A stretch of DNA of 24,718 nt from a virus: IMG/VR virus record IMGVR_UViG_3300017752_002855, positions 1 to 24,718 of that record, one strand, 5' to 3'. The notes under the pieces were generated by a model. That model was not told the origin of the DNA, ran no database searches, and saw nothing but the letters and a program-made list of their open reading frames with translations. Below, piece by piece: positions 14,472 to 22,780 of this stretch. Position numbers and translations under genes: made by a program. How positions within the stretch are numbered: the first letter of the stretch is position 1; the number at the start of each line of letters is the position of its first letter.

Positions 14472-15234
14472 AGTTTTGGTCGCTATCCTGACCAATGGGA
14501 AGCCAGAGAAGTTGGAGCGGTGTCTAAAATCCGTGAACTCAAACTCCTCTCCTCATGAGCGGATTGTCGTTATTAATACAACTGATATCGACTTCTCTTC
14601 TCTGGCGACCCAAATTTCTTTTGACAATGGATTCCCTGTAACGAAAACAAAGTCGAATGGGACTCCAGGATGCGGTAAGAATTCTGTCCTTAGATACTTC
14701 CTTTCCAGCGATGCTGATTATGTCCTCCAGATTGATGGAGATGATTACATTTCTGAAACTTGTATTGCTCGGTTACATGAGGAGATCGAGAATAATGAGT
14801 TTGATGTAGCATGTCTGAGTAAAGGGTATGCGCTTGCTTCAAGTAAGAGGAAAATTCTGGTGAAGGATATTCACAATCTCCCCAAGGTTGCAAGGCAGGG
14901 TCTGACATGGGAGAAAGAAGATCTCGATTACTGGCATCAATATTTGGAGTTTATTGCCTCCCACACTTTCAATGGCGATCCATTCAACCGATATATGTTA
15001 TTGAATCGCACTGCTGCAAAGTATAAATTCGATGAGACTCTGGATATCGCGGAGGATCTCTTACATTTCTTACAGGTTAAACGCGATTTGGTATTACACG
15101 AAATTTGCGCTTCCGAAGATGACTTCTTGTATATGTATGACTTCTCTGAAGATGGGCAGGTTATGGATTCGATGAAAGGTAAGACGATGATAGACAATTT
15201 TAAAGCAATGATGGTGGAGTGGAACAATGGATAA
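14464..15234 (+). CDS. Family 2-type glycosyltransferase
   Basis: A 256-residue GT-A fold glycosyltransferase. The opening MAKVLVAILTNGKPEKLERCL strand-helix, an NSNSSPHERIVVINTT strand and the DXD-type IDGDDY motif (D91, D93, D94) for metal and nucleotide-sugar binding fit family 2. Donor and acceptor are unknown; targets in phages include DNA bases, virion proteins and cell-surface glycans. ATG 14464 overlaps the previous stop (14469-14471), which is why it is preferred to the longer in-frame start at 14422. The 3' end overlaps the ketoacyl synthase start by 8 bases. It begins the run of accessory genes 14464-17617. Confidence 0.8.
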   Translation: MAKVLVAILTNGKPEKLERCLKSVNSNSSPHERIVVINTTDIDFSSLATQISFDNGFPVTKTKSNGTPGCGKNSVLRYFLSSDADYVLQIDGDDYISETCIARLHEEIENNEFDVACLSKGYALASSKRKILVKDIHNLPKVARQGLTWEKEDLDYWHQYLEFIASHTFNGDPFNRYMLLNRTAAKYKFDETLDIAEDLLHFLQVKRDLVLHEICASEDDFLYMYDFSEDGQVMDSMKGKTMIDNFKAMMVEWNNG

Positions 15235-16348
15235 ACTTGCCATCACTGGTATTGGTATGATAGATAATCTGGGTAAGAATCCAGAGCAATGCTTCTCGAA
15301 TTATATCAGCGACAATTATGTTGATGCTTATGATGGGAAATTTGTTGCAGATACTAGCGATATGTTACGCCCAGAAAATATGCGAGGATCCGATTATGCG
15401 AGTCTGAGTCGAGTAAATCAGATGGGACTCCACGCTGCAGAAATGGCAATGGCAAATATACCAATGCGTGAAAACACATTCACTCTGTTCTCAACTTTGT
15501 CGAACGGTAATGAAGAGTTGGTTGATTTCGTTCACGACTTGGAAGATGGTGGTCGCAGAGTAAAACCGAAACGCATGGTTCAGAGTTTAAAAGACCACTT
15601 GTCTGGATTGATTCCGATACTTCACAACTTCACTGGTGGTTCTACAGCGTTCAACTCTGCTTGTGCCAGCAGTTTATATGCATTACATTATGCATTCAGC
15701 CTTGCCGACGATTATGATTTCATTGTTTGTGGCGGTGCTAATAGTATCAATGACCTTGACATGGAATATTTCGGTAAACTTGGAGCACTGGGAACATCAT
15801 CCAAGCCATTTGACGAAGATAGAGATGGCTTTATTATGGGTGAGGGTGCTGGGTGCGTTGTGCTTGAACGTCCATACAGCGCGATTTCTCGAGGTGCGAC
15901 CATCTATGGTTACATATACAAACCATCGCTGGGGTCTGATGGATCTGCTGGTAATATCGTTGAACCTTCATCGATCGGCATCACAAAAACGATGCAAAGG
16001 AGCGCAGAAAAATATAAAGAGGCATTGGCGTTTGTTTCTGCACACGCTACCTCGACTCCAGCTGGAGATGTTATTGAGTATGATGCGATTAAGAAAGTGG
16101 TTGGTGATGTCCCTGTCACAGCGTTCAAGTCTAAACTCGGACACACACTAGGTGCTTGCTCCATCATTGAAATCATTTACACGTTGATGGCTCTGCGAAA
16201 TAAAACTATCCCCAAATCTCACAACATTGATGAAACTCTCCTAAATAATGTTGTATTAGAAAATTCGAAAACAACCAAGAGATTTGCGTTAAAGAATAGT
16301 CTTGGATTTGGAGGTAAATGTGCTTCAGTCATTATCGAAGCTGTATAA
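15227..16348 (+). CDS. Beta-ketoacyl-ACP synthase (KAS I/II-like)
   Basis: This thiolase-fold enzyme would condense malonyl-ACP with an acyl-ACP, elongating fatty acids or building a related acyl chain. The 373-residue protein (typical 405-415) has the full Cys-His-His set: C146 in NSACASS, H273 in HATSTPAGD and H306 in KSKLGHTLGA, with the conserved K301, and a C-terminal SLGFGGKCAS glycine loop. The opening LAITGIGMI and GEGAGCVVLE are also typical. It is complete, with only shortened loops. GGAG at 15216-15219 gives a good ribosome site. Ketoacyl synthases are rare in phages. The following desaturase gene overlaps it, suggesting one lipid-modifying unit. Confidence 0.93.
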   Translation: MDKLAITGIGMIDNLGKNPEQCFSNYISDNYVDAYDGKFVADTSDMLRPENMRGSDYASLSRVNQMGLHAAEMAMANIPMRENTFTLFSTLSNGNEELVDFVHDLEDGGRRVKPKRMVQSLKDHLSGLIPILHNFTGGSTAFNSACASSLYALHYAFSLADDYDFIVCGGANSINDLDMEYFGKLGALGTSSKPFDEDRDGFIMGEGAGCVVLERPYSAISRGATIYGYIYKPSLGSDGSAGNIVEPSSIGITKTMQRSAEKYKEALAFVSAHATSTPAGDVIEYDAIKKVVGDVPVTAFKSKLGHTLGACSIIEIIYTLMALRNKTIPKSHNIDETLLNNVVLENSKTTKRFALKNSLGFGGKCASVIIEAV

Positions 16349-21376: not shown

Positions 21377-21414
21377 AATCCAGACACTCTAAAGAAGAAG
21401 AATAAGGATTTATG

Positions 21415-21828
21415 ATGAGTGAAGATTTCTTCCAGATTGAATATCCTGGATACGCACCGCTAGAAATCACTTTAAAAGATGCAGATGACTTTCTAAAAAT
21501 TAGAGAAACATTATCCCGCATTGGCGTTGCTTCCAGAAAAGAAAAAGTTTTATACCAGTCTTGTCACATACTGCACAAGAAGGGTAGGTATTTCATCACA
21601 CACTTCAAAGAACTGTTTGCGCTTGATGGTAAGGCAGCAGACTTTGGTGAAGGTGACTTGGAAAGGCGAAACACGATCGCTAAGTTACTTTCAGACTGGG
21701 GTTTGATGACTATAGTATCTGAAGAGCAGCATGCTGAACAAGCACCGCTGTCTCAGATTAAGGTTCTCTCGTTCAAAGAAAAGAACGATTGGGAACTGAT
21801 AACCAAATATAATATTGGCAAAAAATAA
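21415..21828 (+). CDS. regA: RegA translational repressor
   Basis: RegA is an RNA-binding protein that blocks ribosome binding on many early phage messages, in T4 including those of 45, 44 and regA itself. The 137-residue protein (T4: 122) matches closely: LEITLKDADDFLKIRETLSRIG (T4: IEITLKKPEDFLKVKETLTRMG) in two parts, VLYQSCHILHKKGRYFI, HFKELFALDG, LLSDWGLMTIV and the C-terminal KYNIGKK. Tandem ATGs at 21412 and 21415 exist; the second is better spaced (6 bases) from AAGGA. In contrast to T4, it is cut off from gene 62 by a terminator and an opposing gene, and its only clear promoter is late. Confidence 0.95.
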   Translation: MSEDFFQIEYPGYAPLEITLKDADDFLKIRETLSRIGVASRKEKVLYQSCHILHKKGRYFITHFKELFALDGKAADFGEGDLERRNTIAKLLSDWGLMTIVSEEQHAEQAPLSQIKVLSFKEKNDWELITKYNIGKK

Positions 21829-21842
21829 CTTGACTTTTTTGC
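21818..21842 (+). terminator. AT-rich inverted repeat at the end of regA (weak terminator candidate)
   Basis: GCAAAAAA (21818-21825) and TTTTTTGC (21835-21842) form an 8-bp stem with a 9-base loop around the regA stop codon. The 3' arm is mostly T, but no T-run follows. It overlaps the -35 of the hsp20 promoter, so it may simply reflect A-tract and T-tract elements of that promoter. Confidence 0.3.
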
Positions 21843-21859
21843 GTTAGATATTATATAAT
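21830..21859 (+). promoter_or_regulatory. Sigma70-type promoter of hsp20
   Basis: TTGACT (21830-21835), 18-bp spacer, perfect TATAAT (21854-21859). The start near 21866 gives a leader of about 52 bases that carries the predicted thermosensor hairpins. No late box precedes the gene, so it should be expressed early by host sigma70 polymerase. Confidence 0.85.
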
Positions 21860-21863
21860 AATC

Positions 21864-21917
21864 ATGCGTTGCCATTTGGGACGCATAAACAAACTCGCTT
21901 AATATAAGGAGACCATT
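21864..21917 (+). promoter_or_regulatory. Candidate ROSE-like RNA thermometer in the hsp20 leader
   Basis: Two hairpins fill the leader. The first pairs ATGCGT (21864-21869) with ACGCAT (21881-21886), with an inner CC/GG. The second pairs CTC-g-CTT (21894-21900) with AAGGAG (21906-21911), six base pairs that hide the whole Shine-Dalgarno sequence, around a 5-base loop. UCGCU at 21895-21899, with its G bulged opposite AGGA, matches the U(U/C)GCU signature of ROSE thermometers that control bacterial small heat-shock genes. ATG is 21918. Folding was done by eye and no energy was computed. Confidence 0.55.
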
Positions 21918-22373
21918 ATGGTTACTAAATTCAGAGCACGAGATCTCCACGAGATCGCAAATAACCTCGCCCCATTCACGATTGGATTTGACCAAGTATT
22001 CGAGAATCTAAATAATGTGGCAGAACTTTCCAACAATTACCCACCTTACAATATTGTCGATGAAGGCAATGGCAAATACACAATTGAATTTGCTGCAGCT
22101 GGATTCACGGATGACGAATTGACAATCACCCAAGTCCCAGAAGGGAACAAACTTGTTGTGCAAGGCATTCAAACCGATGAAGACGATCGTAAATTTGTCC
22201 ACAAGGGTATTGGCGCGAGAAACTTCACCAAGACATTTGCGTTGAATCAGGATGTCGAGGTAGCAGGTGCAAACTTTAACGATGGTATTCTTACAATCTC
22301 TCTTGAACATATCATTCCAGAAGAACGTAAGCCAAAAACCATTGCAATTAAAAAACAATTTCTACAAGAGTAG
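21918..22373 (+). CDS. hsp20: Hsp20/alpha-crystallin small heat-shock protein (IbpA-like)
   Basis: Small heat-shock proteins bind unfolding proteins and hold them for refolding by ATP-dependent chaperones. The 151-residue protein has an IbpA-like N-terminus (TIGFDQVFENL, then NNYPPYNI), an alpha-crystallin domain (about residues 35-130) ending in the A-x-F-N-D-G-I-L-T-I signature (ANFNDGILTI), and a C-terminal I-x-I motif (KTIAIKK) used in oligomer assembly. AAGGAG precedes ATG 21918 by 6 bases and is predicted to be masked by a hairpin. Hsp20 genes are common in marine T4-like phages. In T4, regA and 43 are neighbours; here this gene and an Sm-like gene lie between them. Confidence 0.93.
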   Translation: MVTKFRARDLHEIANNLAPFTIGFDQVFENLNNVAELSNNYPPYNIVDEGNGKYTIEFAAAGFTDDELTITQVPEGNKLVVQGIQTDEDDRKFVHKGIGARNFTKTFALNQDVEVAGANFNDGILTISLEHIIPEERKPKTIAIKKQFLQE

Positions 22374-22381: not shown

Positions 22382-22403
22382 GGGGGAGCGATGCTGCTCC
22401 CCC
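22382..22403 (+). other. Strong GC-rich hairpin between hsp20 and the Sm-like gene
   Basis: GGGGGAGC (22382-22389) and GCTCCCCC (22396-22403) form a perfect 8-bp stem with a 6-base loop. No T-run follows, so a simple intrinsic terminator is doubtful. It may protect the 3' end of the hsp20 message, attenuate read-through, or mark a processing site. Confidence 0.7.
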
Positions 22404-22751: not shown

Positions 22752-22780
22752 TTGACATTTATGCCTGCTAGGGGTATAAT
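22752..22780 (+). promoter_or_regulatory. Perfect consensus sigma70 promoter of gene 43
   Basis: TTGACA (22752-22757), 17-bp spacer, TATAAT (22775-22780): a full consensus match, in the GCTTGACATTTA context shared with the VWA promoter. Counting -7 at 22780 places +1 at 22787, the A of the gene 43 ATG, so the message is predicted to be leaderless. Confidence 0.9.

Follow-up and report, generated by a model that had tools for sequence, protein, structure and literature searches.

A putative ROSE-type RNA thermometer in the leaders of phage hsp20 and other chaperone genes

We analysed a stretch of 24,718 bases of DNA (the window), a fragment of an uncultured T4-like phage, and found that the 5′ end of its hsp20 mRNA is likely a two-hairpin RNA thermometer of the ROSE type (21864-21911), although its response to heat is inferred. 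The element precedes hsp20 in most of the hsp20-carrying phages examined. A reading made beforehand without database searches (the sequence-only reading) had proposed a ROSE-like thermometer. Every prediction it made at the level of sequence held, and the effect of temperature on translation stays an inference. Its scope was understated, as the element is widespread in phages and stands also before dnaK, groES and genes for phasin-like proteins.

Anatomy of the hsp20 leader

The anatomy of the leader is shown directly by the sequence and its fold (Table 1). In the hairpin nearest to the gene (hairpin 2), the arm CUC-g-CUU (21894-21900) pairs with the Shine-Dalgarno sequence (SD), leaving a single bulged G at 21897. 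The minimum free energy (MFE) fold at 37 °C consists of exactly hairpins 1 and 2, with -15.1 kcal/mol. The sequence-only reading had described the SD as fully paired with this arm, UCGCU with its bulged G as the U(U/C)GCU signature of ROSE elements, and a second hairpin upstream; all of this held, the SD pairing with exact coordinates and in agreement with the MFE fold. The reading did not mention that the upstream hairpin 1 has its own bulged G (21871), within a YgCC/GGR core, or that a promoter precedes it. The position of this sigma70-type promoter is shown, and it would start RNA at about 21864-21867; the mRNA is therefore predicted to begin with hairpin 1. An RNA start downstream of 21900, named beforehand as a possible refutation, is contradicted by this promoter prediction, which puts the predicted start upstream of both hairpins.

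Table 1. Features of the window and loci of other genes with ROSE-type leaders (L numbers are our handles for loci)
Feature	Position or loci	Strand	Remarks
Clamp-loader genes	in window		
regA	21412-21828		directly upstream of hsp20 leader
Sigma70-type promoter TTGACT-18-TATAAT	21830-21859	+	consensus scan, 11/12 matches
Hairpin 1	21864-21886	+	stem AUGCGUU/GACGCAU, CC/GG, loop AUUU
Hairpin 2, predicted thermosensing hairpin	21894-21911	+	sequence, fold, conservation, ROSE_3 alignment
UCGCU	21895-21899	+	U(U/C)GCU anti-SD signature of ROSE elements, definition in PMC3669281
Shine-Dalgarno AAGGAG	21906-21911	+	6 nt 5′ of AUG; AUG at 21918
hsp20	21918-22373	+	151 aa, alpha-crystallin domain; putative controlled gene
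DNA polymerase gene	from 22787		
dnaK (Hsp70) with ROSE-type leader	L379-L458, L147, L169, L186, L236		often followed by second element and hsp20
groES behind ROSE-type leader	L532, L583, L617, L637		
groEL behind ROSE-type leader	L578		
Phasin-like genes behind ROSE-type leader	L140, L144, L159, L164, L167, L223, L270, L278, L306, L347, L370		

The published description of ROSE-like elements (PMC3669281, PMC4166951) comprises imperfect pairing of a U(U/C)GCU arm with the SD that leaves a G bulged, two to four hairpins with the SD in the gene-nearest one, and a place in the leader of a small heat-shock gene. The window leader, with two hairpins and hsp20 starting at 21918, meets each of these points. 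The description also asks for more translation on warming, through melting of the SD hairpin while hairpin 1 persists; for the window leader this is supported by predicted SD exposure alone (given below). It does not qualify as a fourU element, its arm CUCGCUU being without UUUU. The gene product matches Pfam HSP20 (E 6.6e-15) and PHROG 432 Hsp20 (E 1e-42) and is 43% identical to enterobacterial IbpA across 136 columns, so that the earlier description of the gene as an IbpA-like Hsp20 also held. A bacterial donor close to the phage hsp20 was not found with strict peptide patterns in a collection of genome contigs.

The two hairpins share a local motif in which the bulged G is flanked by a pyrimidine-purine pair and C-G; it takes the form YgCC/GGR in hairpin 1 (bulge 21871) and YgCU/AGGR in hairpin 2 (bulge 21897). 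The bulged G of hairpin 1 is as invariant as that of hairpin 2, in ROSE_3 too, and is not known to have a role.

Folding energy alone is weak and non-decisive evidence for the structure, because 11 of 200 shuffled sequences folded as well as the window leader; its z-score is modest (-1.8), as z-scores were in general. A covariance search with the Rfam ROSE models, suggested as a check by the earlier reading, points to ROSE_3 (RF02523), which aligns with the window leader end to end at 32.8 bits (E 5.9e-7 for the whole window). This does not reach the curated gathering threshold of 43 bits, and membership is thus not met. At gathering thresholds Rfam reports nothing in the window or its relatives, and ROSE_3 emerges only at a relaxed threshold, with scores of 27.5-39.4 bits in relatives; no phage leader tested reaches the gathering score. 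Membership of ROSE_2 (RF01832) is not met either (14.2 bits, E 1.3, against a cut-off of 65). When 13 relatives (63.7 kb) were compared with 4227 Rfam families, all 11 matches with E<1 were to ROSE_3, and each sat exactly at the hsp20 leader. The window element is significant over its full length, yet it lies outside curated RF02523 as it stands.

Conservation, covariation and specificity of the element

Relatives were collected by two protein-based scans of IMG/VR, whose hsp20 loci ranged in identity from 100% to about 32%, and were supplemented with named phages; leader sequences played no part in their choice. Nearly all share one layout: promoter box, bulged-G YgCC/GGR hairpin, linker, bulged-G SD hairpin and start codon. 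The pairing and the bulged G are retained in close relatives and out to Hsp20s only about 32-40% identical, with either UCGCU or UUGCU as the arm. Under strict criteria, the SD hairpin was present in 44 of 57 distinct hsp20 leaders and in 56 of 62 distinct dnaK leaders, against 6-9% in shuffled leaders. An AT-rich promoter box (TATAAT, TATATA or T4-late-like NTAAATA) was found in 36 of 52 leaders; these boxes are often of the T4-late type and mostly end 0-9 nt 5′ of hairpin 1. Cultured phages that carry the element include P-RSM4, S-PM2, S-RIM12, ACG-2014h and P-TIM40, the Pelagibacter phages HTVC115P and HTVC103P, the Methylophilales phage Melnitz-3 and the Sinorhizobium jumbo phage Phosso. 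No element was seen in the hsp20 leader of Vibrio phage PWH3a-P1. Our covariance model found no match in that of the P. aeruginosa jumbo phage Callisto, where a related hairpin can nevertheless be drawn by eye.

The covariance model (R1) was built from a seed of seven leaders. Across 95 sources (350 kb), 82 of its 84 matches were phage hsp20 leaders; the remaining ones were a bacterial ibpA leader and an off-target match at 12.5 bits. In a model-based alignment of 50 distinct leaders, 96.1% of cells were paired, compared with 80.9±0.9% in shuffles, and double changes occurred in 9 of 14 pairs. Compensatory double-change cells numbered 102; shuffles gave 26.7±4.3, and slid controls never more than 11. 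For hairpin 1, double changes were seen in 7 of 8 pairs, and its bulged G was invariant in the alignment.

Since the 50-leader alignment had been fitted to R1, we made an independent check on 193 distinct leaders, fetched solely by exact hairpin-2 sequence. The hairpin-1 core was present in 159 of them, and its flanking stem was fully (4/4) paired in 78.6%, versus 7.3% (maximum 13.8%) when the 3′ arms were dealt among sequences. Hairpin 2 is under stronger constraint on sequence, yet compensatory pairs exist there as well: AUC-g-CUU/AAG-GAU in HTVC103P, GUC-g-CUU/AAG-GAC in ACG-2014h and, read by eye, CCAC-g-CUU/AAG-GUGG in S-TIM5 and S-TIM54. Under loose criteria, the bulged base was G in 106 and A in 11 of 117 distinct hsp20 and dnaK hairpins. 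Conservation of the pairing and its compensatory changes are shown by these counts, the sequence-only reading having proposed a comparison of hsp20 leaders as a check, and it is the comparative data, not the folding energy, that raise the structure above chance.

Specificity was also evident in whole genomes, where R1 gave a single match, at hsp20, in a 138.7-kb relative, P-RSM4 (176 kb), S-PM2 (187 kb) and Phosso (469 kb). The best match in Callisto (18.3 bits) lay elsewhere in the genome than hsp20.

Several leaders carry a bulged A in a natural variant of the ROSE core (CUU-a-CUU opposite AAGGAG; L089, L098, L108, L444, L448, L454 and L456). In P-HM1 (L116, GU071101; 542-601) the annotated hsp20 start (544) falls within the predicted thermometer, and translation probably begins at an ATG further on, after the SD. 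Two records that appeared to offer phage members of the Rfam families were rejected and used only as controls: 'Campylobacter phage A11a' (L120, MG065691), a candidate ROSE_2, and 'Pseudomonas phage Y7' (L124, OQ572409), a candidate ROSE_3, hold ordinary bacterial ibpA leaders (100 and 69 bits, respectively), probably from contaminating host DNA.

Other genes behind the element

When viral contigs were scanned four times for exact matches to hairpin 2, without the use of proteins, at least 465 places were returned. The gene behind the pattern was hsp20 in 375 of these 465, dnaK in 32, a phasin-like gene in 20, groES in 9, and groEL and a peroxiredoxin gene in 1 each; among the places outside the named classes, 15 were cut by the end of the contig. 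Genes were identified with Pfam for representatives, and GroES otherwise by its N-terminus. The first hairpin-2 pattern had 11 places in a collection of cellular genomes, one of them 5′ of hsp20 on a 13.5-kb metagenome-bin contig; the other ten had no relevant gene. These results show the association of the element with chaperone genes.

Among phage dnaK loci fetched by protein alone, 73 of 80 carry the element, and most of the others have it with a bulged A. R1, built from hsp20 leaders, also matches dnaK leaders, as well as a second element between dnaK and the next gene, hsp20, forming a dnaK-ROSE-hsp20 cassette. Cassettes of the order groES-groEL-ROSE-hsp20-clpS-like were found in two loci (L578 and L583). 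Some of the dnaK and phasin-like leaders carry an additional hairpin. Neither an SD nor a ROSE element precedes dnaK in the huge phages examined (LR756502 and others) or in Lak-A2. The phasin-like proteins are small (70-80 aa; 70-75 aa in the family at the loci of Table 1), resemble phasins by eye only and have no match in Pfam or PHROGs; possibly they are unnamed phage stress proteins. In a single case, an AhpC/TSA peroxiredoxin gene on a phage contig (L668:5203-5739) has a hairpin and an SD hairpin with UUGCU ahead of it.

Proposed mechanism, rival explanations and known systems

In the mechanism we propose, hairpin 2 would pair the SD with the U(U/C)GCU arm at low temperature, its helix weakened by the single bulged G. 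Warming would melt hairpin 2 and leave the stronger hairpin 1 folded, so that ribosomes could bind and Hsp20 be made. Transcribed during infection, the message would wait for hairpin 2 to be opened by warming or by another cause, and the phage may benefit from chaperoning of proteins in the heat-stressed infected cell. Phages would share the element as a post-transcriptional switch for hsp20, dnaK, groES with groEL, and the phasin-like small proteins. It is inferred that hairpin 2 melts at physiological temperatures, that translation is induced and that the phage benefits. With ViennaRNA, the predicted exposure of the SD in the window leader was 0.02, 0.09 and 0.23 at 20, 37 and 47 °C, nearly as in a leader of the Pseudomonas (P. 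aeruginosa) ibpA type (0.03, 0.10 and 0.21). Leaders were folded from hairpin 1 on, as DNA upstream of the promoter caused misfolding. Opening is predicted to proceed gradually and to differ between relatives, some of which are predicted to be open or flat at all temperatures, and the model fails to reproduce an E. coli-type control leader; for these reasons the predictions support temperature sensing without proving it. Also weighing against the proposed reading are the ROSE_3 scores below the gathering threshold, the modest z-scores, the bulged A in about 10% of SD hairpins and the lack of the element in PWH3a-P1.

The main alternative, which is possible and may apply in addition, is that the leader is chiefly an operator for Hsp20 itself. 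An IbpA-like Hsp20 would bind the 5′ untranslated region and repress translation until Hsp20 is titrated away by misfolded proteins, so that the RNA would report protein aggregation rather than temperature, or do so atop thermosensing; given that dnaK and groES carry this element too, Hsp20 would act as a repressor of phage chaperones. It is known that gamma-proteobacterial IbpA binds its own ROSE leader and needs Arg93 for this (PMC10474464; E. coli IbpA), and the equivalent arginine (R101 in the window protein) is invariant in the aligned phage and IbpA sequences. However, such an arginine is common to many small heat-shock proteins and is weak evidence, the bulged-G SD hairpin is retained as in ROSE elements that melt with heat, and some phages have dnaK with the element while Hsp20 is not known in all of them.

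It is unlikely that the hairpin merely sets low or delayed translation, for instance late in the infection or by way of a repressor such as RegA, without sensing temperature. Boxes of the T4-late type do precede many leaders, and regA lies directly upstream in the window phage and in several cyanophages. Against this, the element tracks heat-shock genes (dnaK, groES, hsp20), whose surroundings differ widely, and follows neither genome position nor regA, and a plain SD hairpin would need neither an invariant bulged G nor hairpin 1. A chance hairpin with a coincidental ROSE signature could be entertained on the modest z-score of the single-sequence fold and on the 6-9% of shuffled leaders that have bulged-G SD hairpins, but the frequency of the strict-criteria hairpin in distinct hsp20 and dnaK leaders, with compensatory changes, speaks against it. 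We rejected this explanation on covariation and whole-genome specificity, which all but exclude it.

Thermosensing by a ROSE-type element remains the preferred reading, and the closest known counterpart is the short two-hairpin ROSE of Pseudomonas ibpA. In that system, experiments in cells and in vitro have established thermoregulation; temperature is sensed by hairpin 2 only, and hairpin 1 remains folded at 42-50 °C (PMC3669281, Krajewski et al. 2013). The phage element shares with it two hairpins, a leader of about 60 nt, the bulged-G U(U/C)GCU arm opposite the SD, the same bulged-G core in hairpin 1 and a small heat-shock gene behind. In contrast to the P. aeruginosa-type leader, which scores 69 bits with ROSE_3, the phage elements score 27-39 bits, below the cut-off; they reside in phage genomes with phage promoters, have CUU/AAG rather than CUGA/UCAG at the top of hairpin 2, and are found also on dnaK, groES and phasin-like genes. 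With the E. coli-type ibpA ROSE (ROSE_2) the window element has in common the bulged-G U(U/C)GCU arm on an IbpA-type gene, but not the score given above.

Known phage thermometers are lambda cIII, a fourU element in blyA of SP-beta and a fourU element before a phage sigma70 gene (PMC11182007, PMC10586365). The element described here, with its predicted heat response, resembles these in being a temperature-sensitive leader structure in a phage mRNA, whereas they belong to other RNA classes and genes, none being a ROSE element and none acting on a chaperone. Lambda cIII works in the opposite sense, heat lowering its translation (PMC4166951). Among RNA thermometers in general, ABC-transporter cases joined in 2024 (PMC11342760). 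Phage proteins of the kinds whose leaders carry the element have been described, namely Hsp20 of cyanophages (PMC3827213, PMC5028025) and chaperones of moraphages (PMC12619734); the word 'thermometer' is absent from these cyanophage and jumbo-phage/moraphage papers. In the open-access literature searched (subscription papers and preprints were outside the scope), we did not find a ROSE element in a phage, which agrees with the statement of the sequence-only reading that no phage thermometer of this class was described. We thus regard the element as ROSE-type in anatomy, though not RF02523 by the cut-off; its setting and its target genes are new, and its control by heat is inferred.

A bolder reading, towards which we lean only slightly, is that tailed phages own a heat-shock regulon. 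A shared ROSE-type thermometer would switch on Hsp20, DnaK, GroES/GroEL and phasin-like proteins translationally and independently of the host's transcriptional heat-shock response, in T4-like cyanophages, pelagiphages, a Methylophilales phage, jumbo phages and many uncultured phages; Hsp20 may, as part of this reading, feed back on the same leaders as a sensor of aggregation. Phage RNA thermometers have so far been a handful of isolated cases, and a single conserved element is now seen to mark the chaperone genes of phages from many groups. Long-studied cyanophages are included, in which hsp20 was known and its control was unexplained in the literature examined. The element predicts when phages make chaperones and offers a direct test of why they carry them, provides a sequence handle for phage stress genes, unnamed small proteins included, and, for aquatic phages, gives a concrete link between temperature and infection.

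Some other features of the window were noted. A beta-ketoacyl synthase gene (15227-16348; Pfam 5.8e-24 and 4.4e-20) is an unusual metabolic gene for a T4-like phage. A perfect sigma70 consensus, TTGACA-17-TATAAT (22752-22780), lies directly 5′ of the DNA polymerase gene. Immediately 3′ of hsp20 there is a strong hairpin, GGGGGAGC/GCTCCCCC (22382-22403), and a similar hairpin, GGGGGAG/CTCCCCC, follows hsp20 in L578 and L583.
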